Assembly: GCA_021845905.1 (NCBI GenBank)
Contig: JAJZVA010000009.1
Location: 1 to 64,000 of the forward strand
DNA: 64,000 bases
Source of the DNA: Pseudomonadota bacterium
GTDB lineage: Bacteria > Pseudomonadota > Alphaproteobacteria > Micavibrionales > UBA2020
Reading direction: 5' to 3'
Of this stretch, positions 122 through 24,388 are shown in pieces. Within the stretch, counting starts at the first letter, position 1, and the number at the start of each line of letters is the position of its first letter. A program made the position numbers and the translations under genes. The notes under the pieces are model-generated. The model searched no databases and was not told the DNA's origin. It worked only from the letters and a program-made list of their open reading frames with translations.

Positions 122-724
122 CTAGGAGCCTCCGGCAGTCAGCTTGAGGAAACTCTCGCGCGCGGCGCGGTCCTTCTTGTAAATGCCTCCAAAGCGGGTC
201 GTAACGGTGAGCGCGTGGTCCTCGCCGACGCCGCGGAGTTTCATGCAAAAGTGCTCCGCCTCGATCATCACCGCGACGCCTTTGGGCTTGAGATACTTTT
301 CGAGCGCGTTCGCCACTTCCTCGGTGAGCCGTTCCTGCGTCTGCATGCGGCTAGCGTATGCGTCGACCAGCCGCGACAATTTAGACAGGCCGACAACGCG
401 CCCGTCCGGCACGTAAGCGATATGCGCATGGCCGATGAACGGCGCAAGATGGTGCTCGCAACGCGATTGCACCTTGATGTTCTTCACCAGCACTGGCCCG
501 CCGTAATCCCCGACCTCGCGGAATGTTTTGGAGAGAATTTCCGCCGCATCGAGCCCGTATCCGTGAAAATATTCATCGAACGCCTTGACGACGCGCTGCG
601 GCGTTTCGCGCACGCCCTCGCGCTCTGCGTCCTCGCCGATATACTCGATCAGGGTTTTCACTGCCCGTTCGGCCTCGACGCGTGACGGTCTGCTGTCTTT
701 AACGATTTTGAGCTTCTTTTTCAT
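122..724 (-). CDS. folE: GTP cyclohydrolase I
   Basis: Converts GTP to 7,8-dihydroneopterin triphosphate, the first step towards tetrahydrofolate (and, through related routes, queuosine). The 200-residue length is normal for the bacterial enzyme. The zinc ligands are visible: Cys89 and His92 in the SRCEHHLAPF motif and Cys160 in EAEHFCMKLRGV, together with the QERLTEEVA motif of the GTP site. It is a soluble homo-decamer in known members. It is monocistronic as far as can be seen: an IS end lies directly behind its stop codon and a divergent or unrelated array lies upstream. The last residues (LKLTAGGS) are close to the usual end, so the insertion probably did not truncate it. Folate need fits with the purine operon at 8-19 kb, which consumes 10-formyl-THF in two steps. 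Confidence 0.96.
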   Translation of the reverse strand: MKKKLKIVKDSRPSRVEAERAVKTLIEYIGEDAEREGVRETPQRVVKAFDEYFHGYGLDAAEILSKTFREVGDYGGPVLVKNIKVQSRCEHHLAPFIGHAHIAYVPDGRVVGLSKLSRLVDAYASRMQTQERLTEEVANALEKYLKPKGVAVMIEAEHFCMKLRGVGEDHALTVTTRFGGIYKKDRAARESFLKLTAGGS

Positions 725-858: not shown

Positions 859-1710
859 TTATTGCAATGAAATCTGCGCAAGCGCGGGTGGCACGGACGC
901 AGGAACATAAAGCTTCTTGCCCAAAGACGTCAGCCAAACGCCACTCTGGTTCGCCGCTTCATAGAAGACGTATGGCTTTTTCCACCCATACACCCGCAGC
1001 GGGAGAACATACCGACTGGCCTCGACAACCGCGCCGCCGTCGTTGAGAACGATGAAATTCTGCGCCGCTCCCTTGGGCGCGACGTTCAAAAGCAAAACCA
1101 CATGATCCGGTTGCTTGCTCGACCCGCTCGCGCTGACAAGGGTGACCATGAGACGGTTTTCCGGCACACCCAGATGGCGCAAAATAGCGTATTGCAAGGT
1201 CGCGTAATCCTTGCAATCACCCGCCTTCGACAAAACCGTCTGCACCGGCGCCGCCCAATAAAAACCGGAAGCCTTGCCATAAAGGTTGTCGTTATAGGCG
1301 ATGTATTTAACAACTCCCGCATTGACGTCTTGCGCCATTTTCTTCAGCGGTTCTTGCGCGTAAATGTTGAACCCGTCGAGAAAAACATCATACTTACGCG
1401 CGTTTTTAACGTTGCTCATGCCGGCTTTCTGCCGGGCGGCAATGGCCTGCCAGTCATTATTTTGCAAACTTGCGGCACGGTAGGCCACTTCGCCGAAAGC
1501 CGTCACCGTCTCAGGTAAATCCGGATATTGCGCAGATGATGAGATATTTTGCGGTCGCGGCGCGGGCGTCACCGGCGCAGTGCTACAGCCGCCGCACACC
1601 AAAGCCACGCTCGCGAAAGCCGCACAGAGATATCCTTTCATGCGCGGTTTTAAACCGGATTTTTTTGCCTGCGGCGCGCCTGAAAACGAATGCGCCTTAT
1701 TTTCTTTCAT
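859..1710 (-). CDS. LapG-like (BTLCP, C93) transglutaminase-fold cysteine peptidase, paralogue 1
   Basis: Member of the bacterial transglutaminase-like cysteine proteinase family (PF06035), whose known member LapG cleaves large surface adhesins in the periplasm. The catalytic triad is visible: Cys166 in KAGDCKDYATLQY, His203 in PDHVVLLLNV and Asp224 in FIVLNDGG; Asp165 and Asp168 beside the Cys match the calcium-binding positions of LapG. The N-terminus has a basic stretch, a hydrophobic segment and a lipobox (VCGGC, Cys42), so it is probably a lipoprotein. It is the last of six tandem paralogues on this strand and has its own promoter-like sequence at 1750-1778. No lapD-like or large adhesin gene is nearby, so the substrate is unknown. 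Family assignment is firm; proteolytic role is inferred. Confidence 0.85.
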   Translation of the reverse strand: MKENKAHSFSGAPQAKKSGLKPRMKGYLCAAFASVALVCGGCSTAPVTPAPRPQNISSSAQYPDLPETVTAFGEVAYRAASLQNNDWQAIAARQKAGMSNVKNARKYDVFLDGFNIYAQEPLKKMAQDVNAGVVKYIAYNDNLYGKASGFYWAAPVQTVLSKAGDCKDYATLQYAILRHLGVPENRLMVTLVSASGSSKQPDHVVLLLNVAPKGAAQNFIVLNDGGAVVEASRYVLPLRVYGWKKPYVFYEAANQSGVWLTSLGKKLYVPASVPPALAQISLQ

Positions 1711-1749
1711 TCGGTTATTCCGTATTATTATTTTTGCTTAAGTTTTTGC

Positions 1750-1778
1750 ATTATTGACTCATTTTATTATTACGTCAA
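1750..1778 (-). promoter_or_regulatory. Candidate sigma-70 promoter for paralogue 1
   Basis: On the minus strand TTGACG (1778-1773) is followed after 17 bases by AATAAT (1755-1750). It sits in the AT-rich gap 1711-1869, about 40 bases ahead of the peptidase gene starting at 1710. The same layout precedes paralogues 5 and 6. Confidence 0.45.
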
Positions 1779-1869
1779 TAAATCAATTATTCTTTAAAAT
1801 ATTTAAATATCAGATATTTAAATAAATAAAATAATTTTCTGTAAATTATCTGAGTTAATAGCGATGTCT

Positions 1870-2751
1870 TTAAGGTTTTTTAGATGTGGGGGCATCAGGT
1901 TTGGATTTCGGCGAAACCTTGGCCCCATAAACCTTATCATACAATGGCGTAAACCACGCCGCATGCTGATTGAGCGCATCAAAAAATACATATGGCTTCG
2001 ACCAGATGCCGTTTGCCCCTTGAGGCCGGGCATAAAGACTTGCATCAACCACGGGGCCTCCGTCATTCAGGACAACGAAGTCTTGTTTTGATCCGTCTTT
2101 TGCCACGTTCATCAATAACACAAGATGGCTGGTTCCCTTGTCGGAACCGCTGGCATTGACAAAGGCCATGACCAGCCTGTTTTCCGGCACGCCCAAGTGG
2201 CGCATGATGGCATATTGCAAAACTGCATAAGCCTTGCACTCCGCCATGCCTGCCTGAACCGTCTGCACGGGCGCGGCCCAGTAAGCATCCGGATTCGGAT
2301 AAAGCTTGAATTTATAAGAAATAAGGCCAAGAACGCGCGTATTGACGTCCTGCGCCATTTTTCTCAGCGGTTCATGCGCATAAACCTCGAACTGATCGAG
2401 AAACGCCGCATATTTTTTCGCATCCTTTGCATCCTGCATGCCCTGTTCTTGACGTTCAAGCATCGATAGCCAGTTTGCGTAAGGTGCGATCTCTTTGCGT
2501 CTGGCAATGGCGCCAAAAGCCGCAACCGTCTCCGGCTCGCGCGGATGTTGCACAGTCGCGCTTAGCGTCAGAGGATCCAGACCCTTCAAGCCTGACGGCG
2601 TAGCCGCCAGGGAAGCTTGCCCAGCGCCAAGCGAAGTCGCCGAGATCGCGAAAGCAACAGCCGTGAAAGCCGCGCAGAGCGCCCCCTTTGCATGCCGCGC
2701 GCGCAATGGACAGTCTGCTTTCTTAGCAAAGTTGCCGTTGTCTTTATTCAT
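1870..2751 (-). CDS. LapG-like cysteine peptidase, paralogue 2, with altered calcium-site residues
   Basis: Same family as its neighbours (293 residues). The catalytic Cys172, His209 and Asp230 are retained, but the active-site motif reads MAECKAYAVLQY instead of GDCKDY/Q: the residue before the Cys is Glu rather than Asp and the Asp two residues after it is Ala. In LapG the acidic residues flanking the Cys bind calcium, so this copy may be calcium-independent or weak. An N-terminal signal peptide is likely (hydrophobic run with an ASLA-A cleavage region near 46-50); there is no lipobox. Its ATG overlaps the TGA of paralogue 3 (ATGA at 2748-2751), so the two are translationally coupled. The remainder of the fold (YWAAPVQTV before the Cys, MRHLGVPENRL after it) is conserved. 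Confidence 0.82.
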   Translation of the reverse strand: MNKDNGNFAKKADCPLRARHAKGALCAAFTAVAFAISATSLGAGQASLAATPSGLKGLDPLTLSATVQHPREPETVAAFGAIARRKEIAPYANWLSMLERQEQGMQDAKDAKKYAAFLDQFEVYAHEPLRKMAQDVNTRVLGLISYKFKLYPNPDAYWAAPVQTVQAGMAECKAYAVLQYAIMRHLGVPENRLVMAFVNASGSDKGTSHLVLLMNVAKDGSKQDFVVLNDGGPVVDASLYARPQGANGIWSKPYVFFDALNQHAAWFTPLYDKVYGAKVSPKSKPDAPTSKKP

Positions 2752-3713
2752 GTCACGCCATACGCGCTTTCTTTTTTCAAAGAGCTATTCGCCGCAACGG
2801 CAGGCGTGTTCCGAGACGCAATGTCCTTTTCGTTGATGATATAGTCTCTTGGCGTCAGGCTCGTCCGCCAGAAACCTTTTTCATTTCTGATATCATAAAG
2901 AACAAAATCGCATTTTACCCATTTGCCGTCTTGGTTTTGAGTATTCCATGTTTTTTGCACACGCAGATTATCGGCAGGAATAACCGGCGGACTATCATTT
3001 AAAATGACAAACTCCGGTTTTTGATGTATCGGCGCGACGTTCAATAGCAAAATGACATGATCAGGAGCCTTGCGGGAACCTTCCGCATTGACATTCGCTA
3101 TAAACAAACGGCTCGCAGGCACGCCCAAGTGGCGCAGAATGGCGTATTGCAAAGCCGACTGATCTTGACAGTCCCCTTTCCCGTGAAACACTGTTTCCGC
3201 AGGCGGAACCAAAGGATCATCCGATCCATAGAAGGTATCGCTATAGCTGACGTTTTTTTCCACGAGTGCGTTGACATGCGCAGCCATTTTTTTGAGAGGT
3301 TCGTTGCGAAAATGGTCGAACCGCCCTAAAAACGAATTGTATTTCACCGCTACTTTTTTCTGCCGCATGATATCGGCCTGATCGAGCCAAACGTCATGCC
3401 AGGTGCTCCAATAAGGATCTTTCCGCGGCGATGCCTGCGTTGCGACACTGTTAAAAACATTGATAATCCGTGGCCCTGCCGACTTGATATAAAAATCATT
3501 GCCGTCCGGAGGTTTGACCGGCAACGGCTTTGGTGGAGCGGGCCTGGGTGGAGCGGGCTTGACCGGTAGCGGCTCAACTGGCGACGGTGCGGGGCCTGGA
3601 TGGTCCGGCCGTATAAAATAGACATCAATTCCTACACCGGCCCCGGTCAGCACAGCCGCCGCGAAAGCCGCGCCAAGATATCCTTTCCAGCGCCAGGAAG
3701 AAGCTTTTTTCAT
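2748..3713 (-). CDS. LapG-like cysteine peptidase, paralogue 3, with proline-rich linker
   Basis: PF06035-type protein of 321 residues. Catalytic residues Cys182 (KGDCQDQSALQY), His219 (PDHVILLLNV) and Asp240 (FVILND) are present. After a short basic start (MKKASSWRWKGYL) and one hydrophobic segment there is a proline-rich stretch at about residues 36-69 made of repeated P-x-K-P / P-A-P units, a typical envelope-spanning spacer, so the protein is probably anchored in the inner membrane by an uncleaved signal and displays its peptidase domain at a distance. The KGYLxAAFAxxxL start is shared with paralogues 1, 4 and 5. It lies 50 bases behind paralogue 4 and overlaps paralogue 2 by four bases, so 5-4-3-2 probably form one transcript. 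Confidence 0.83.
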   Translation of the reverse strand: MKKASSWRWKGYLGAAFAAAVLTGAGVGIDVYFIRPDHPGPAPSPVEPLPVKPAPPRPAPPKPLPVKPPDGNDFYIKSAGPRIINVFNSVATQASPRKDPYWSTWHDVWLDQADIMRQKKVAVKYNSFLGRFDHFRNEPLKKMAAHVNALVEKNVSYSDTFYGSDDPLVPPAETVFHGKGDCQDQSALQYAILRHLGVPASRLFIANVNAEGSRKAPDHVILLLNVAPIHQKPEFVILNDSPPVIPADNLRVQKTWNTQNQDGKWVKCDFVLYDIRNEKGFWRTSLTPRDYIINEKDIASRNTPAVAANSSLKKESAYGVT

Positions 3714-3763
3714 TTCTACACTCTATCCTTTATAAATCACTTCTATTTTCAGGTGAAACAATC

Positions 3764-4687
3764 TCACGACACGCCTGGCGCACCTTTTCTCCCGGGACGA
3801 GGGCCGGACGCGGAAGATGGTTGTATCTGCCATGATGCCCCCTGGTTCATGAGGTAATAGGGAACGACATCCGCACGCACCAGCGTGCCATTGCTCTTTC
3901 TCACCACCCACGTCTTTCGCACGAGCGCATTATCGGCATCGATGACCGGCTTGACGTCGTTAAGGATGACGAAATGAGGAGCTTTGTCTGCCGGCGCAAC
4001 ATTCAGAAGTAAAAAAGCATGGTCGTAATCGTCATGCGACCCAACTATGCTGACAATCGCAATCATCAAGCGCTTTTCCGGCACGCCGAGATGCCGCAAA
4101 ATGGCGTATTGCAATCCGGTCTGGTCCTTGCAATCGCCCTTGCCGTGAAGCACGGTCTCGGCGGGCGCGGCCCAATGGTCATCGGACTCGCCATAGAGTT
4201 TGGCGCTGTAAGCGATCGTATCTTCGACCAGCGTATTGACATGCGAAGCCATCACCCTCAATGGCTCGCCACGGAAACCATCGAACAGCGCGAGATAGTC
4301 ATTGTATTTCTTCGCAACATCCGGCCTCTCCATAAGCCTTTCCTGAAGTGATCTTGCATCGCCCCAGGATTGCCAAAGAGGATTCAAATCCGGCGAACTC
4401 CGCATCGCCACATCGCCGAAAACGCTGATAACGAAAGAGTCGACAGACGAGGTTGGAGCCTGCGGAACGACAGGAAGGGTTGCGTGCACGCTGTGGTTTC
4501 CCGCCGCAGGCTTTTGTCCGGCAGGCCGGGAATGCGTTGCGACGGGCTTGAAAGCATACCCACCCTCGGAAGGCGCCAAATGCCCGGCGACGCCGAAACA
4601 TCCGCCAACCAGCGCGACGGCTGCGAACGCCGCCCTGAGATAGCCTTTGCGTTTTTCATGTGCAACGATCGTGACGGGTGCTTTCAT
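3764..4687 (-). CDS. LapG-like cysteine peptidase lipoprotein, paralogue 4
   Basis: PF06035-type protein of 307 residues with Cys186 (GKGDCKDQTGLQY), His223 (YDHAFLLLNV) and Asp244 (FVILND) as the likely triad, and acidic residues on both sides of the Cys as in calcium-binding LapG. The N-terminus carries KRKGYLRAAFAAVALVGGC: basic residues, hydrophobic core and a lipobox with Cys30, so it is probably lipid-anchored. A low-complexity linker (residues about 40-85) separates anchor and catalytic domain. It starts three bases after the stop of paralogue 5, which indicates co-transcription and probably coupled translation. Its closest relatives in the array by eye are paralogues 3 and 5 (shared GEPLxxMAxxVNxLV and DKxxH/Y motifs). 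Confidence 0.84.
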   Translation of the reverse strand: MKAPVTIVAHEKRKGYLRAAFAAVALVGGCFGVAGHLAPSEGGYAFKPVATHSRPAGQKPAAGNHSVHATLPVVPQAPTSSVDSFVISVFGDVAMRSSPDLNPLWQSWGDARSLQERLMERPDVAKKYNDYLALFDGFRGEPLRVMASHVNTLVEDTIAYSAKLYGESDDHWAAPAETVLHGKGDCKDQTGLQYAILRHLGVPEKRLMIAIVSIVGSHDDYDHAFLLLNVAPADKAPHFVILNDVKPVIDADNALVRKTWVVRKSNGTLVRADVVPYYLMNQGASWQIQPSSASGPRPGRKGAPGVS

Positions 4688-4690
4688 ATT

Positions 4691-5890
4691 TCAGCTCACT
4701 TTCATGCCCGGCACGACCGTGGCTTTCGAATGCGAGGCCGGTGCCGGAGCAAGTTTCTGCCCGAACACTTTTCTACCCACCGCCGTCTGCCAGAACCCAT
4801 CCTGATTGATGGCAGCGTAAAAAACATACGGCAAAGACCATTCATAATCTGCGCCTTGCGGGCGCGTATACTCCCTGGCATCCAGAACAGGCCCGCTGTC
4901 ATTCATCACAAGATAATCCGGCTTATATCCTTTCGGCTCAATGTTCAAAATCAAGACCGAATGATCAACTGAATTAGTCGAGCCTACTGCGCTGACAGAA
5001 GCGATCATCAAACGTTTTTCCGACACGCCGAGATGTCTCATGATGTAATATTGGAGTATAGCCTGATCTTTACAGTCACCCGCGCCATGCCACACCGTCT
5101 CCGCAGGCGCAGCCCAGTGGGTATCATCCTTATCATAAAGCGTATCACTGTAAGTGACTGTGTTTTGCATCAGCCTATTGACATCGACGGCCATGGCAGT
5201 GAGCGGTTCGCCACGGAAACGGTCGAACTGCGCTATATAATCGTTGTATTTTTTTGCGACATCAGGCTTTCTCATGAATTTATCCTGAAGAGACACCATG
5301 TCGCCCCAGCTTTCCCATCCCAAATCGTCCTTCGGAGAAATCTGCTGAGCTACACCATTGAAGACACGGATAACGTCTGGACCCGCGGCCTTGTTGTCGA
5401 CGGGCACGCTATCCGGAGGATAAGAAGACTCGTTTGGCTTGTATATGTCGTATCCATACACTCCCAGCACGCCAGCCATTAAAGCAACGCTAAAAGCTTT
5501 TTTCAGATAGCCTTTGCCGGGTGACTTCCCTTTGTTTTTTTTCGCTCCCGATTTGCACTGCAAGTCGGACTTGATAAACGCCGTTTCTCCAGAGTTTCTT
5601 TCAGTAACCGCAGTCACGGCAGGGAAGGCGCGCACCTTGTCGATCAAATCAGCCCCGCAGGAGAGCATGATGAATCCGGTGTCGGGAAAAACCGTTTCAA
5701 TGAAAACACCCTCGATTACAGACTTGCTGTCATAGCCTGCGTCTTGTGCAAGCGCCTGAATATTACGGCTCAACTCATGTATAAAATAATGACGCGTATC
5801 TTTAAAAGGAAAGGCGACATCAACCTGCCATTTTATTTGGGTATGCTTAGCATCCGGTGCCTTGGCGGCATTTTTTAGTTCAATGTCCAT
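4691..5890 (-). CDS. LapG-like cysteine peptidase with extra N-terminal domain, paralogue 5
   Basis: The largest copy (399 residues). Residues about 150-399 are the usual PF06035 domain with Cys273 (GAGDCKDQAILQY), His310 (VDHSVLILNI) and Asp331 (YLVMND). Uniquely, the shared export motif (KGYLKKAFSVALMAGVLG) begins only at residue 127: about 125 residues precede it, so this part would stay in the cytoplasm and the protein would be a single-pass inner-membrane protein. The extension looks like a small alpha/beta domain (strand, helix, strand, with GFIMLSCGADLIDKVRAFPAV), vaguely like ferredoxin-fold or I9-propeptide domains; I cannot assign it. First gene of the likely 5-4-3-2 transcript, with a promoter candidate at 5944-5971. 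Confidence 0.82.
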   Translation of the reverse strand: MDIELKNAAKAPDAKHTQIKWQVDVAFPFKDTRHYFIHELSRNIQALAQDAGYDSKSVIEGVFIETVFPDTGFIMLSCGADLIDKVRAFPAVTAVTERNSGETAFIKSDLQCKSGAKKNKGKSPGKGYLKKAFSVALMAGVLGVYGYDIYKPNESSYPPDSVPVDNKAAGPDVIRVFNGVAQQISPKDDLGWESWGDMVSLQDKFMRKPDVAKKYNDYIAQFDRFRGEPLTAMAVDVNRLMQNTVTYSDTLYDKDDTHWAAPAETVWHGAGDCKDQAILQYYIMRHLGVSEKRLMIASVSAVGSTNSVDHSVLILNIEPKGYKPDYLVMNDSGPVLDAREYTRPQGADYEWSLPYVFYAAINQDGFWQTAVGRKVFGQKLAPAPASHSKATVVPGMKVS

Positions 5891-5943
5891 GACCCACTTT
5901 ATTTTACAAATGTTCTGCCGTTATTTTCGTCCAGAGTAAAAAT

Positions 5944-5971
5944 ATAATAATACGTATATTAATTATGTCAA
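5944..5971 (-). promoter_or_regulatory. Candidate sigma-70 promoter for paralogues 5-4-3-2
   Basis: On the minus strand a perfect TTGACA (5971-5966) is followed after 16 bases by TATTAT (5949-5944), in an AT-rich gap 54 bases ahead of the ATG at 5890. The flanking sequence (ATTGACATAATTAATAT) resembles that of the promoters of paralogue 6 and of the gene at 24604. Confidence 0.55.
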
Positions 5972-6016
5972 TGGTTTATTCCAAAATTTAATTATCAAAT
6001 AATTTCAATATGATAA

Positions 6017-6808
6017 TTACCAACTCAAACCATATACACGGTCTCTCTTCGTTGCCCAAAATCCATTCTCATTGCGCGCGTCAAAAAACGTATAACGGTG
6101 TTGCCTCCAGTCCTTTTCATACATTGAGTCCGGAAAAACACCCAGCGTGTCATTCATCACCAAAAAATCTTGAAGCTTGCCGACCGGCGCGACATTGACC
6201 AGCAAAACAGCGTGGTCCGTCTCATTGTCATTACCATTCGTCCTGTCTGCATTAACGTATGCTATGAACATCCGGTTTGACGGCACACCGAGTGAACGCA
6301 AGATGAAATACTGCAATACGGCCTGATCCTTGCAGTCTCCTTCGCCATGACGCACGGTCTCCGCTGGGGTCGCCCAATAATCGTCATCCTTGCCGTAGAG
6401 CGTATCGCTATAACCGATCTGATATTGCACAAGATCGCTAACGTCATTTACCGCTTTCGCCAGAGGCTCGCCGCCGAATTTTTTAAACTGTTTCAAATAT
6501 TTCCGATAAGGCTGCGCGCATTGCGGTTTTTCCATGCATTCCGCCTGATGACGCAACAACCTCGTCCACCTTAAACCAGACGGATCTTCATACCTTGGCA
6601 TTTTTATGGCCTTGTCATTGAAGGCCACCAGAGCGGGAGGTTGTTGTCCTGCCACAGTCACGACCGGCGCAAAAGATTTGGGATGATAAGGTTCGCTATA
6701 CGGTTCGACTCCACAACCGCCAAGGATCGCTACGCCTGCAAAAATGGCGCAAAGGCTTTTTTTTGCACGCAGACTGACGGCTAACTGCTTTATTTTATTC
6801 TGATTCAT
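6017..6808 (-). CDS. LapG-like cysteine peptidase lipoprotein, paralogue 6
   Basis: PF06035-type protein, 263 residues from the chosen ATG at 6808. The reading frame is open further up to 6916, but a good promoter lies at 6849-6876 inside that extension, so the start must be downstream of it. The N-terminus then reads as a clean lipoprotein signal with lipobox LGGC (Cys32). The motif DDYWATPAETV...GEGDCKDQ is the closest in the array to genuine LapG. Likely triad Cys159, His199, Asp220. A second Cys pair (Cys91, Cys97) in the linker region is peculiar to this copy and could form a disulphide in the periplasm. It is the most upstream member of the array and is separated from paralogue 5 by a 126-base gap holding the latter's promoter. 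Confidence 0.82.
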   Translation of the reverse strand: MNQNKIKQLAVSLRAKKSLCAIFAGVAILGGCGVEPYSEPYHPKSFAPVVTVAGQQPPALVAFNDKAIKMPRYEDPSGLRWTRLLRHQAECMEKPQCAQPYRKYLKQFKKFGGEPLAKAVNDVSDLVQYQIGYSDTLYGKDDDYWATPAETVRHGEGDCKDQAVLQYFILRSLGVPSNRMFIAYVNADRTNGNDNETDHAVLLVNVAPVGKLQDFLVMNDTLGVFPDSMYEKDWRQHRYTFFDARNENGFWATKRDRVYGLSW

Positions 6809-6848
6809 CCCGCTCATCCATTTTGGACATTTGATCAGCAGTATTGTT

Positions 6849-6876
6849 ATATTAGGAAAAATATAATTTATGTCAA
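6849..6876 (-). promoter_or_regulatory. Candidate sigma-70 promoter for paralogue 6
   Basis: On the minus strand TTGACA (6876-6871) stands 16 bases from TAATAT (6854-6849), giving a predicted transcript start near 6842, about 34 bases before the chosen ATG at 6808. This promoter decides the start of the downstream gene. Confidence 0.55.
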
Positions 6877-6973
6877 TAATATAATCCTGCGTTCTGTATT
6901 GGTTTTCGAATGACATTTTATATTTTATTTATTATTTTCAGAGCCTTCTAAAAAATTGACAGAGGTCAAAAAA

Positions 6974-8056
6974 ATGGAAAAGCAACTCTTCAACCCTTTG
7001 AAGGCGGGCGCGTTCAACCTGCCAAACCGCATCCTGATGGCGCCGCTCACGAGAGGCCGCGCCGATGTGGACGGCGTGCCCACCAGGCTGATGGCCGACT
7101 ATTACGTTCAGCGCGCCGCGGCGGGGCTGATCATCGCCGAAGCGACGGCTGTTTCCAAGCGCGGCTACGGCTGGGTGCAGGCGCCCGGCATTTTCACCCC
7201 GGCGCAGGTCAAAGGCTGGCAGATGGTCAATGACGCCGTGCACAAGGCGGGCGGACGGATCGTCTTGCAACTCTGGCACATGGGCCGCGCTTCGCATCCG
7301 GACTTTCTCGGCGGGCAACTGCCTGTCGCCCCTTCTGCCATCGCCGCCGAAGGCCACACCACCACGCCGCTCGGACAAAAAGACTACGTCGTGCCGCACG
7401 CGCTCGACCTTGATGAAATCAAGACGACGATCGCGGATTACCGCCGCGGCGCGACCCTGGCCAAAGACGCGGGCTTCGACGGCGTCGAGATTCACAGCGC
7501 CAACGGCTATCTGCTCGACGAGTTCCTGCGCGACGGCGCCAACAAGCGCAATGACATTTACGGCGGACCTGCGGAAAACCGCGTACGCCTTCTCCAGCAA
7601 GTGACGGAAGCCGTCGTCGGCGTCTGGGGCGGCGACCGCGTGGGCGTGCGCCTTTCGCCCCGCAACCCTTACAAGGGCATGACGGACAGCGATCCCATCC
7701 ATACTTTCAGCGTTGCTACTGAAAAACTCAACTCCTACGGCCTCGCCTATCTGCATAGCATGGAGCCGTTGCCGGGCCACAGACTTGCCGTTGCGGGAGA
7801 GCGCGTTTCGCCTTACATGCGCAAAATTTTCAAAGGCGCTTTCATCGCCAACGGCGGCTATACGCAAGATCTGGCGGAAAAAGCGCTGGAGCACAAAGAG
7901 GCAGACGCCATCGCCTTCGGCGTGCCGTTCATCGCCAATCCCGACCTGGTGGAGCGTTTTAAATCCGGCGCGCCTCTCAATGCCGCCGACGACAGCACCT
8001 TCTACACCCATGACGCGCATGGCTATACAGATTATCCCCTGCTGGCAAAAGGCTGA
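6974..8056 (+). CDS. Old Yellow Enzyme family NADH:flavin oxidoreductase (NemA-like)
   Basis: FMN-dependent ene-reductase that reduces activated double bonds or electrophiles such as N-ethylmaleimide and nitrate esters using NAD(P)H. The TIM-barrel landmarks are visible: N-terminal LxNRILMAPLTRGRA, LQLWHMGRASH, the substrate-binding His and Asn in GVEIHSANGYLLDEFL, RNDIYGG, and the C-terminal FMN-phosphate loop FIANGGY...AIAFGVPFIANPDLV. Length (360 residues) is normal. I chose the ATG at 6974 because AGAGG at 6961-6965 is well placed; a TTG at 6956 in the same frame lacks a ribosome binding site. It is cytoplasmic, stands alone in front of the purine operon and has no obvious functional link with it. 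Physiological substrate unknown. Confidence 0.92.
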   Translation: MEKQLFNPLKAGAFNLPNRILMAPLTRGRADVDGVPTRLMADYYVQRAAAGLIIAEATAVSKRGYGWVQAPGIFTPAQVKGWQMVNDAVHKAGGRIVLQLWHMGRASHPDFLGGQLPVAPSAIAAEGHTTTPLGQKDYVVPHALDLDEIKTTIADYRRGATLAKDAGFDGVEIHSANGYLLDEFLRDGANKRNDIYGGPAENRVRLLQQVTEAVVGVWGGDRVGVRLSPRNPYKGMTDSDPIHTFSVATEKLNSYGLAYLHSMEPLPGHRLAVAGERVSPYMRKIFKGAFIANGGYTQDLAEKALEHKEADAIAFGVPFIANPDLVERFKSGAPLNAADDSTFYTHDAHGYTDYPLLAKG

Positions 8057-20311: not shown

Positions 20312-23300
20312 TTATTTCCGCGTCTTGAGCCGTGCGCCGAGGTACAGCGCGGGAATAAGGTTGGTGCTCAAAAGCGCGCTCCAGATCACGCCGCCCATGA
20401 TGACGACGGCAAGCCCCTGCTCCGGCGCTGCGCCAGCGCCGAGGCCGAGCGCCGTCGGCAACATACCCAGCACCGCTGTCGCGGTGGTGAGCGCTATGGG
20501 GCGAAAACGCGCACGTACGGCTTCTTCCACAGCAGCAGTCACGTCCATGCCTTCTTTTTCGTTACGCCTTGCGCGGTAGAGCAAGACAATGCCGTGGTTG
20601 AGGCTGACGCCGACGAGCGTGAGGAAGGCGATCAGCCCTGTCGCGTTGAGACCGACGCCGCTGACGACAAGCGCCGCCGCCCCACCTGTCAGCGCCAGAG
20701 GCATTTGCAACAACAGAAGGCCTGGCACGAGAAATCCTTCGAACTGCAAGGCCATGATGCCTGCCATCAGCGCCAGCGCCGCGACCAGAGCCATACCTAG
20801 CGCCAGCGCCGCCTGCTCAAGTTGCGGAAAAAGCCCTCCGAAAGAGATCCGATACCCTGGCGGCACATGAATGCCTTGCAATGCCTGTCTGGCTGCAGCA
20901 ATGACATGGTTCAACGGCGCAAGCGGCGTGGCGAGAATATCGAGCGTGCGCGCGCCGTCTAGGTGGCGAATCACGTTCGGGCGGCTGACAAGTTTCAGCG
21001 TCGCCAGACTTCCGAGCGGCATCCAGCCTTGCGGCGTTTTCACAGGCACCTGCGCCAAAGCGCGCGGGGTTTGGCGCGGCGCGTCGGCAAGCCGGACATA
21101 AAGAGCGAGCGGCACATTGCCGACAGGCACCAGCGCCGCAATTTCGCCATGCAAAAGAGGCCTGATCTGCGCATAAAACATGGCAGGCGTAAGATGCATG
21201 ACAGAAAGAGCCGCCACATTTGGCGTTATCCGGATCGCACTTACCGGATAAGCATCATTGTCAAATATATCCATCAGAGCAGGAACACGGCGCAGTCGCG
21301 TAGCTATCTTCCGAGATAATGCCCGCAAGCCTGAAATGCTGTTGCCGAAGACGCGGATCACAAATGGCTGAGGAAGGCCGGAAAGGCTCTCACCCGTGCG
21401 TTCTATCGTCGGCGTATCGATGTCCGTTTGCACGTCCGTCATATGACTCTCTTTTTTGAGACGTGCGCTAATAGCATCAAGATTGTTGGCGCTGACACCC
21501 GACTTCAGCGTAATCTGGATTTCCCCGGCATAGGCAGGCTCTGTATAGGCTGTCGTTGAAGCAGATCCGATACGGGCATAAACATGATCGACGGCAGGAT
21601 CGGCTTTCAAGCTTTGCGTGATATGATCCACGGCCGCCCGCGTATCGGCAAGAGACGTTCCTGGCGGCAATGTGAAGCTTTCCAATAAAACGCCTTCGTT
21701 CGGCAATGGCAGAAAATTGACCGGCACCAGCGCAAGCCCGGCAAGACTGACCAATAAAAAGATCACGCATATAAAAAGAGCTCCCATCGGGCGACGGGCG
21801 GCGGCGCGGAATATTTTTTCATTCCAGCTACGTAACTTGGGCAGGAAAGAGCCTTCGCGGCGCGCCTCGCGAACTTTGATCAGGTTTAGGCCGAGCGGAA
21901 TGAGCGTCAGAGAAACCAGTAAAGACGCCAGCAATGCGAATGTCATGGCCAATGCAAAGGGGATGAAAAACAAACCGGCAAGCCCGCCGACTGCGAGCAA
22001 AGGCAAAAAAACAGCGACCGTGGTAAATGTGCCCGTAACGTCAGGGCTGGCAATATCGCGCAAACCCGCCGCGACGCTCTCTTGCTGCGACATCCCCTGC
22101 TCACGACGGTGTTGAATGCTCTCAAGAACGATAATGGCGTCATCTGCCAGCAAGCCGACCGCAACGGTCAGCGCGCCAAGCGTAATCAAATTAAGGCTCT
22201 GCCCGGCGGCGTGCAAAAGGCCGATCCCCATCAGCAGCGACATCGGTATGCTCAAAGCCAGAAGCCATACGCCGCGCCCGGCGCCCAGCGCGACAAGCAG
22301 GACGCCGATGGCCAGCAATCCGCCGAGAACAAGATTGCGTCCAAGATCGCGGCCAATCATCCGCACCAGATGCCCCTGATTGTAAATGCGCACCCATTTA
22401 ACGCCTTTTGGCAAAGCACCCGCCGTGGCCGCAAGCGTCTTTCGTACTGCACGCGTGACCGGCAAGGTGCCCACACCCGGTTGTTTCAGGATTGTCAGCG
22501 CAACGGCAGGATGCCCATCAAGCAAAATTGCGCTATGCGCAGGAATACCGGCACGCGCGATATGCGCCAGAGCGCCGAGACGGATTGCCATCCCTTGCGC
22601 GTTCATCACGGAAATGGCCGCAAGATCATGAATATGACGCGGCAGGCTCTGCACTTCAATCGGCACGTCCTGATGACCCATATCGACATACCCGCCGGAG
22701 GCGCGAACGACAGACTGCCTTAGCGCGCGCATGATCGCGGATACCGTGACGTCATACCTGCGCAATGCGGCAAGATCAGGTTGCACCCACAAAGCCTCTC
22801 GTCCCGCACCATAAACCTCGACTCTCTGCACGCCTCTGAGCGCGCGCAGAGCCGGAACAATATTCCCGCGGACGGCATTTTCAACCTCCGCAGGCGCGAT
22901 GCCGGGAGGGATTTGCGCCGCATAATCCGCCACTTCATTGATGGCGTTTCCCATGATATCGGCTTGCGGATGCACATCGGCCGGAAGACTTGCCCGCGCG
23001 CGGTCTATGGCACTGTTGACAGCCAGCAGATCATCTTCCGCGGTTGTGTTCCGGTTGAAGCGCACGTCTATCTCAACAGCGCCTCCGCCCATCGCCGAAC
23101 GCACGGCAGATACATTCTGCAAAGCCAGAATTCGCCCCTCTATCGGGCGCACAACTTCCGTTTCCAGAGCTTCAGCCGCCACGCCAGGGCGATGCACAAC
23201 AACAGAAATCTGCGGAAATCCGAAACGCGGCAGGACTTCAACAGGCGTCACAAACAACGCATGGACTCCATAAGCGGCAAGAGCGCTGTAAATCAAGATC

Positions 23301-23332
23301 CATAGCAGTGGGCGGGAAAAAAGGCTTTTCAT
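20312..23332 (-). CDS. RND family efflux transporter, inner-membrane pump
   Basis: Proton-driven trimeric pump of the AcrB/HAE1-CzcA superfamily, about 1,006 residues with the expected two halves of six membrane helices and large periplasmic loops. The paired proton-relay aspartates are visible in helix 4 (GLLADDAIIVLESI). TM4 and TM10 neighbourhoods (MALVAALALMAGIMALQFEG; NHGIVLLYRARRNEKEGM) are typical. The ATG at 23332 (MKSLFSRPLLWILI) is preferred over a GTG nine bases upstream because it places a short basic tail before the first helix. It follows the adaptor gene by 12 bases. No outer-membrane TolC-type gene is next to it. Substrate cannot be told from sequence. Confidence 0.92.
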   Translation of the reverse strand: MKSLFSRPLLWILIYSALAAYGVHALFVTPVEVLPRFGFPQISVVVHRPGVAAEALETEVVRPIEGRILALQNVSAVRSAMGGGAVEIDVRFNRNTTAEDDLLAVNSAIDRARASLPADVHPQADIMGNAINEVADYAAQIPPGIAPAEVENAVRGNIVPALRALRGVQRVEVYGAGREALWVQPDLAALRRYDVTVSAIMRALRQSVVRASGGYVDMGHQDVPIEVQSLPRHIHDLAAISVMNAQGMAIRLGALAHIARAGIPAHSAILLDGHPAVALTILKQPGVGTLPVTRAVRKTLAATAGALPKGVKWVRIYNQGHLVRMIGRDLGRNLVLGGLLAIGVLLVALGAGRGVWLLALSIPMSLLMGIGLLHAAGQSLNLITLGALTVAVGLLADDAIIVLESIQHRREQGMSQQESVAAGLRDIASPDVTGTFTTVAVFLPLLAVGGLAGLFFIPFALAMTFALLASLLVSLTLIPLGLNLIKVREARREGSFLPKLRSWNEKIFRAAARRPMGALFICVIFLLVSLAGLALVPVNFLPLPNEGVLLESFTLPPGTSLADTRAAVDHITQSLKADPAVDHVYARIGSASTTAYTEPAYAGEIQITLKSGVSANNLDAISARLKKESHMTDVQTDIDTPTIERTGESLSGLPQPFVIRVFGNSISGLRALSRKIATRLRRVPALMDIFDNDAYPVSAIRITPNVAALSVMHLTPAMFYAQIRPLLHGEIAALVPVGNVPLALYVRLADAPRQTPRALAQVPVKTPQGWMPLGSLATLKLVSRPNVIRHLDGARTLDILATPLAPLNHVIAAARQALQGIHVPPGYRISFGGLFPQLEQAALALGMALVAALALMAGIMALQFEGFLVPGLLLLQMPLALTGGAAALVVSGVGLNATGLIAFLTLVGVSLNHGIVLLYRARRNEKEGMDVTAAVEEAVRARFRPIALTTATAVLGMLPTALGLGAGAAPEQGLAVVIMGGVIWSALLSTNLIPALYLGARLKTRK

Positions 23333-23344
23333 GCCACGCACCCG

Positions 23345-24388
23345 TCAATCGGGAGGCTGATAGTGCGCGGCAATGCCGTGATGGAAAAGGCCGTAGGCGT
23401 TATCCACAATGACATTGTCTCCGGATTTGAGACCGCTTTTTATAAACGTCCCCCAACCGCGGGCCGGGCCCAAAACAACCTTGCGTCTTTGCAGGCCTTC
23501 ATCCGTTTTCACCAGAACCCACCACTGTCCGCGATCAAGAACCAGCGCGCGCGTCGGCACCACGACCATCTTCTCAACATGGCCGCCAAGCGCGACATTG
23601 CCATAGGCACCATCGCGCAACTGCCTCTCTTTTTCAGCGGGAACCATGCCGACCGTTTCTCCGCCGCTCGGGGAAGACGCGTTAAAAACGCTTCGCACCA
23701 CGACCGGAACAGGCTTTTCTCCTGTTGCAGGCGTGAAAATACCCGTCATGCCGGTATGAATAGCCGCCGCATCCGCTCCGTAAAAGCTGGCGGCAAGCCA
23801 TATGCTGTCATCGGGGCGCAATATCAGGATGGCGTTTCCAACGGCAACGCGCGCACCGTTAGAGGTGCGGAGAGCTATAACGGTTCCGTCGACAGGCGTC
23901 TTGATCACCGCCATATCCTGCAACGCCTGAAGTTTTGCCGTTGCCGCGGCGCGTGCGGCATCCGCCGCGGCAAGGTCGCTTTTTGCCCGCACAAGCGTCT
24001 GACGCGTGCCAAGGCGGTCCGAAAGTGTTTTTTGCGCAATGACAAACAACCTCTTTGCCGTACTGTAACGCGCATCAGCCGTTTTGACAGCCGCCTCATC
24101 TGCAGCCAAAACCTCCTTCATCTCCGCACCGCCCAGTGTGGCAAGCGTTTCACCAAGATGAACATGATCGCCCGGAACGACTTTCAAGCCGGCAATCGTT
24201 CCTGCCGCTCCAGTACGTACTTGAAAAACAGAAATCGAACCCGACGTGGCATAAGCCTTGTAGCGCAGGGTCACGTTTTGTTTTTGCACGGTAACGATAC
24301 CCGTGCTTTGCGCCAGCGCGGGAGCAGCCGCAAGCAAGCAGACGCAGACAAAACCAAAGGTCGTTTTTTTATACAAGCGAAATGTCAT
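23345..24388 (-). CDS. RND efflux periplasmic adaptor (MFP/HlyD family)
   Basis: Links the pump at 20312 with an outer-membrane channel. 347 residues. Signal peptide with an ALA-Q cleavage site near residue 26. Lipoyl-type half motifs are seen at GTIAGLKVVPGDHVHLGETLATLG (about 65-88) and VIKTPVDGTVIALRTSNGARV (about 160-181), with a helical hairpin of Ala-rich coiled coil in between (about 95-155), then a beta-barrel and membrane-proximal domain. The hairpin is short. No lipobox. Stop lies 12 bases ahead of the pump start, so they form an operon. Confidence 0.9.
   Translation of the reverse strand: MTFRLYKKTTFGFVCVCLLAAAPALAQSTGIVTVQKQNVTLRYKAYATSGSISVFQVRTGAAGTIAGLKVVPGDHVHLGETLATLGGAEMKEVLAADEAAVKTADARYSTAKRLFVIAQKTLSDRLGTRQTLVRAKSDLAAADAARAAATAKLQALQDMAVIKTPVDGTVIALRTSNGARVAVGNAILILRPDDSIWLAASFYGADAAAIHTGMTGIFTPATGEKPVPVVVRSVFNASSPSGGETVGMVPAEKERQLRDGAYGNVALGGHVEKMVVVPTRALVLDRGQWWVLVKTDEGLQRRKVVLGPARGWGTFIKSGLKSGDNVIVDNAYGLFHHGIAAHYQPPD

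Follow-up and report, generated by a model that had tools for sequence, protein, structure and literature searches.

The six consecutive genes near the start of the window (the whole 64,000-nucleotide stretch of DNA that was analysed) are genuine: they form an unusually large tandem expansion of the bacterial transglutaminase-like cysteine peptidases (BTLCPs, C93), an enzyme family already known, and make up a separate branch at the genus level whose active-site motifs are altered. The window itself is the start of a 113 kb contig (G000:C9) in a genome of 2.42 Mb and 26 contigs. Six intact minus-strand ORFs, T1 to T6, occupy positions 859-6916, each encoding a BTLCP paralogue, which confirms the position and copy number given by the original prediction. 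The array is flanked by folE on one side, and by a divergent Old Yellow Enzyme (OYE) gene followed by purF on the other (Table 1). Pairwise identity among the six proteins ranges from 35 to 50% (37-49% for T1 versus each of the other five). An assembly artefact was considered as the source of the array and rejected, given the low identity between copies (35-50%) and the presence of the locus in other assemblies made independently.

Organization of the array

The genes are closely packed, the 3' end of T3 overlapping the start of T2 by 4 bases. For T6, the ORF opens at 6916 (6017-6916), with candidate later starts at 6817 or 6808. Because a promoter-like site falls inside the longer ORF (6876-6849), translation probably begins at 6817 or 6808 rather than at 6916. 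Similar consensus matches precede T5, T1 and folE, suggesting T6, T5-T2, T1 and folE as candidate transcription units, with the site ahead of T5 as the possible start of a T5-T4-T3-T2 unit; such promoter-like sites barely exceed those in shuffles (9 versus 6.5, sd 3.0). Elsewhere in the window, an RND efflux pump pair, comprising an AcrB-type transporter and a HlyD-type adaptor, lies on the minus strand at 20312-24388.

Table 1. Features of the array locus, in window coordinates
Feature	Coordinates	Strand	Description
folE (GTP cyclohydrolase I)	122..724	-	conserved downstream flank, outside the array
T1	859..1710	-	BTLCP paralogue, 283 aa; borderline lipobox VCGGC; GDCKD / H203 / LND; orthologue in G002 at the same locus
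Promoter-like site before T1	1750..1778	-	10/12, within AT-rich gap; consensus match only
T2	1870..2751	-	BTLCP paralogue, 293 aa; plain signal sequence; active-site motif altered to AECKA; G002 orthologue
T3	2748..3713	-	BTLCP paralogue, 321 aa; uncleaved N-terminal anchor and Pro-rich spacer; GDCQD
T4	3764..4687	-	BTLCP paralogue, 307 aa; lipobox LVGGC; GDCKD
T5	4691..5890	-	BTLCP paralogue, 399 aa; orphan N-terminal extension of ~117 aa preceding the membrane anchor; GDCKD
T5 N-terminal extension	5540..5890	-	~117 aa
Promoter-like site before T5	5944..5971	-	TTGACA-16-TATTAT, 11/12; consensus match only
T6	6017..6817	-	BTLCP paralogue, 266 aa from likely start 6817; lipobox ILGGC; GDCKD
Promoter-like site before T6	6849..6876	-	10/12; consensus match only
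Old Yellow Enzyme family FMN oxidoreductase	6956..8056	+	conserved upstream flank, divergent, outside the array

The array proteins adopt a LapG-like fold but have lost a calcium-site residue

All six proteins match the Pfam family PF06035 (E 1.2e-7 to 1e-3) and were recovered by a profile search of the genome for C93 (E<=4e-4). The gathering score of 27 is passed by T1 (32.1) and T6 (29.5) only, T2-T5 scoring 19-25, so the family assignment expected for the whole array holds at that threshold for two proteins. The Transglut_core profile likewise matches every protein of the array, and T1, T3, T4 and T6 exceed its cut-off. When a profile built from T1-T6 was run against PDB sequences, it was significant only for LapG of P. 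fluorescens (4u65) and L. pneumophila (4fgo). AlphaFold models agree with this result: the T1 model (pLDDT mostly 93-98 in blocks of the domain core) has LapG (4fgo) as its best PDB match at Z 15.0, and the T5 model has the same best match at Z 14.9 over residues 201-371, the next family reaching 10.4-10.6 in both cases. As the models match LapG best and the array profile finds LapG structures, a BTLCP (C93) fold is well supported for the predicted proteins, bearing out the description of the genes as LapG-like.

GDCED, H and LDN are the successive active-site motifs in most relatives from the order and in canonical LapG-like proteins from other alphaproteobacteria. The array carries GDCKD (T1, T4, T5, T6), GDCQD (T3) or AECKA (T2), followed by H and then LND. 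Lys or Gln replaces the calcium-binding Glu after the catalytic Cys in six of six proteins (D-C-K, D-C-Q or E-C-K), and T2 is also altered on the other side of the Cys (E-C-K-A). In the third triad motif, LND versus LDN, an ungapped alignment puts Asn at the position of the catalytic Asp, with Asp directly after it. Of the Cys-His-Asp framework initially read from the sequences, a Cys...His...Asn-Asp core is present in all six, its third residue aligning as Asn. All 27 aligned relatives retain the catalytic Cys and His and, in the T1 model, C166 begins a helix (166-179) and H203 a strand (203-209).

The calcium site comprises two residues, one of them the Glu that follows the Cys; in DvhG, with its catalytic Cys at 317, the D316A/E318A double change kills the protein (PMC13090378). 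Because this Glu is lost in all six array members, LapG-type calcium dependence of T1-T6 appears unlikely from their motifs; the loss could also signal lost activity. The Asn at the third triad position need not abolish activity, since the HvyA D241N variant is functional, and D241A is not (PMC4241560). A change at the calcium site also occurs in the order-wide C93 gene (L059 9158-10147; L069), where the Glu is a Lys in this genome and in G004 (GGDCKDYAIAKY) and is kept by most relatives.

Given the lost calcium Glu, a score of 33.9-59.7 bits on the NCBIfam LapG equivalog NF045674 (cut-off 320), a clade confined to one genus and a genome lacking LapD, T1-T6 are not LapG orthologues and probably constitute a separate branch of the known enzyme family. 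The part of the original prediction that would make them LapG proper thus falls away.

Birth and death of genes at a single locus

The genome holds nine C93 genes, six in the array and three elsewhere. Among 289 sampled alphaproteobacteria, 80 had a C93 gene, and nine was the top count, followed by five, so that the supposed expansion is indeed unusual. A search of the relatives recovered one order-wide C93 gene plus a set of extra genes. The order-wide gene (C3:61211 here) belongs to the same family as the array and is found in most genomes of the order that were searched, but it forms a separate clade, mostly retains GDCED/LDN and is present in one copy per genome at another locus.

Phylogenetic analysis placed 13 genes in one clade (support 100/98), all from this genus and all at this locus. 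Copy number varies from one (G005) to two (G002, G004 and G007) to six in the present genome. The folE-[n]-OYE synteny is kept in G002, G004 and G005, and on the folE side in G007, where the contig is short; G001, G003 and G006, whose assemblies are incomplete or fragmented, gave no match of the array clade. Conservation of the array in relatives extends to the locus in congeners and not to the number of genes (1, 2, 2, 2 or 6), and is limited to this genus. Within the tree, the G002 pair are orthologues of T1 and T2, a G004 copy clusters with T6, and T3-T4-T5 make up a clade confined to this genome. The T6-related G004 copy lacks about 40 residues before its Cys, indicating that some members of the clade decay. 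Pairwise dN/dS values are 0.18-0.45, which are rough because dS is near saturation for most pairs, and reflect purifying selection on the array clade. Between congeners, the array-locus proteins are 36-64% identical, as compared to 78-89% for folE and OYE. The array is a fast-changing, genus-specific cluster shaped by birth-and-death through tandem duplication at one locus. The proteolytic cascade that had been proposed finds no footing here: no zymogen or activation site was recognisable in the array proteins, and copy number at the locus varies between one and six across congeners.

The bacterial family shows further tandem expansions, namely an independent cluster in the congener G003 (C69, about 25.9-29.6 kb) and tandem C93 pairs in G010 and G016. 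Like the array, the G003 cluster encodes at least three exported tandem BTLCPs, which share a signal block of their own and in some cases carry a lipobox; its different locus and clade mark it as a separate expansion. At this site (L055 7905-11613, on G003:C69), three C93 genes are accompanied by a 430-aa gene that has the same kind of signal and no Pfam match. A search of public genome contigs with the array returned two relatives only, both congeners already in our set and present in public records as MAGs (LL3.bin49, palsa_926), and the literature search yielded no paper that links Micavibrio with LapG.

A conserved signal block and diversified anchors

Across the 13 clade genes, the signal block averages 64% identity, the catalytic domain 45% and the linker 21%. 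The shared KGYLxAAFAxVAL start noted at the outset is accordingly real and more strongly conserved than expected. The block around KGYLCAAFAxVA exceeds the catalytic domain in conservation between species too, not just within the genome. Recent gene conversion was rejected as the sole cause, because the block shows much the same level of conservation between species; part of the effect may come from an Ala-rich composition. The exact G-x-L-C-A-A-F-A pattern, searched in DNA, gave 9 matches in eight congeneric genomes, 7 of them in the array locus, and none with a reversed control. A signal/anchor block of the form (R/K)xKGxLCAAFAAA occurs in the N-termini of T1-T6 and in L052-L056.

The proteins differ in their anchors. 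Lipoboxes had been assigned to T1, T4 and T6: the last two fit the standard pattern, while T1 has Cys at -3 and is borderline. The plain signal of T2 and the uncleaved, Pro-rich anchor region of T3 could be read from the sequence as first described. These signal motifs predict lipidation and a periplasmic location for the array proteins. The extra domain attributed to T5 corresponds to an N-terminal extension that is presumably cytoplasmic, matches nothing in Pfam and is without relatives among 15 related genomes. The model is weak here, with pLDDT block means of 25-74, and shows strands alternating with helices, in an order of strand-helix-two strands-helix-strand that by eye looks ferredoxin-like.

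Search for components of a Lap system in the genome

The LapD N-domain (PF16448) was absent from the genome and from the searched relatives of the order. As 14 control genomes were silent as well, we searched a phylum sample as a positive control and obtained profile matches in 36 of 120 genomes; the absence of LapD noted initially is thereby borne out. It is not in itself the sign of an undescribed system, because HvyA is already known as an exported, non-LapG alphaproteobacterial BTLCP outside the Lap system (PMC4241560).

The search for further Lap components returned seven EAL-domain proteins and two type I secreted RTX proteins. A LapB/LssB-type transporter scoring above its cut-off is encoded at C8:88057, near a 1181-aa RTX protein and a cNMP-EAL protein. 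This type I secretion locus (L086 3501-15505, on G000:C8) also contains a CHASE2 adenylate/guanylate cyclase beside the LapB-type ABC transporter, with adaptor and outer-membrane genes assigned by position and cyclic-nucleotide genes on both sides of the RTX gene. In a second locus (L087 4452-10955, on G000:C25), another transporter, of the C39 type, is encoded close to a 2167-aa RTX protein whose N-terminus shows weak lipase/Mbeg1-like similarity. Large RTX-type adhesins had been anticipated together with a cleavage site; a search of the 1181-aa and 2167-aa proteins found no [TAP]AAG in either. Neither type I secretion locus contains a C93 gene, and no secretion gene adjoins the array. A Lap-like role for T1-T6 is possible but unsupported, because the RTX proteins lack [TAP]AAG and their loci lack a C93 gene.

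Comparison with characterized BTLCPs

LapG (P. fluorescens, L. pneumophila; MEROPS C93, PF06035) and the array have in common the fold, the Cys and His, a Sec-type export signal and a periplasmic location as judged from the signal. In contrast to LapG, the array proteins have K/Q in place of the calcium Glu and LND in place of LDN, reach 34-60 bits versus 320, carry membrane or lipid anchors, and come as six tandem copies with no LapD and no linked adhesin. DvhG from Desulfovibrio vulgaris resembles the array as a BTLCP with an N-terminal membrane anchor and a flexible linker that works outside LapD control, but it keeps the Asp/Glu calcium pair and the C-H-D triad and sits in an adhesin/T1SS operon. 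HvyA from Caulobacter crescentus is likewise an alphaproteobacterial exported BTLCP outside the Lap system that tolerates Asn at the third position; unlike the array, it is soluble and encoded in a capsule export locus, and it is not known from a tandem array.

Proposed function and alternatives

We favour, with reasonable though far from full confidence, the view that the array is a genus-specific BTLCP/C93 branch, grown by tandem duplication, of envelope-anchored, calcium-independent and LapD-free hydrolases with diversified substrates. The enzymes would face the periplasm, tethered to the membrane by lipid (T4, T6 and perhaps T1) or by an uncleaved helix (T3, T5), with T2 being released, and the quickly changing spacers would set their reach. 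A Cys-His-Asn/Asp centre would hydrolyse amide bonds in proteins of the envelope or surface without a LapG-type calcium site, and LapD would not switch the enzymes. Duplication would yield copies that differ in anchor and probably in substrate. A more specific version, which we regard as rather unlikely, is a battery of calcium-independent Cys-His-Asn BTLCP proteases that shave or mature different envelope proteins in a lineage without LapD, held at differing distances from the membrane (by lipid, by helix plus Pro-rich spacer, unattached, or joined to a cytoplasmic domain).

It is unlikely that the six proteases release type I secreted adhesins under a c-di-GMP receptor other than LapD, as in the DvhD-DvhG system of Desulfovibrio. 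The closest fold is that of LapG, DvhG shows that a membrane-anchored BTLCP can be LapD-independent (PMC13090378), and the genome provides LapB/LssB-type and C39-type transporters, two RTX proteins and seven EAL-domain proteins. However, DvhG and LapG need the Asp/Glu calcium pair, of which all six have lost the Glu, neither RTX protein has [TAP]AAG, the array adjoins no secretion gene, and the order-wide C93 gene is an equally good candidate for a Lap-like role. A role on surface polysaccharide export proteins, with the enzymes tuning the capsule or envelope state without LapD, seems a little less probable again. The exported alphaproteobacterial BTLCP HvyA prevents capsulation and depends on its Cys and His, and it is functional with either Asn or Asp at the third position (PMC4241560), matching the aligned Asn of the array. 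Yet no capsule gene was recognised beside the array, the congener flanks being folE and OYE/purF, and HvyA itself is soluble. Neither an Agrobacterium BTLCP nor either of two HvyA paralogues from S. fredii could replace HvyA (PMC4241560), so a shared family does not predict a shared role.

We consider it very unlikely that the enzymes act as transamidases or deamidases, cross-linking or modifying envelope proteins rather than cutting them. The Transglut_core matches in all six, four of them above cut-off, and the lost LapG calcium site fit such an activity, but the closest structure is LapG at Z 15, as compared to about 8-10 for transglutaminase, and we know of no BTLCP that cross-links. That the enzymes act as surface lipoproteins attacking prey envelope proteins in a predatory lineage is more improbable still: the order is presumably that of the epibiotic predator Micavibrio and the expansion varies between related species, as weapons often do, but the relative that we take to be M. 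aeruginosavorus (G052) has a single C93 gene, and the signals point to the periplasm, with no evident secretion route outward. M. aeruginosavorus attaches to its prey and has many hydrolases (PMC3189940), in favour of this reading.

Implications

The array suggests that the LapG fold has been put to use and has multiplied beyond the c-di-GMP/LapD adhesin system, its calcium-site residue having been lost. For alphaproteobacterial PF06035 matches, the calcium motif and the partner genes should be checked before a protein is annotated as LapG. The array offers a natural set of paralogues for asking what controls BTLCP enzymes without LapD and calcium.
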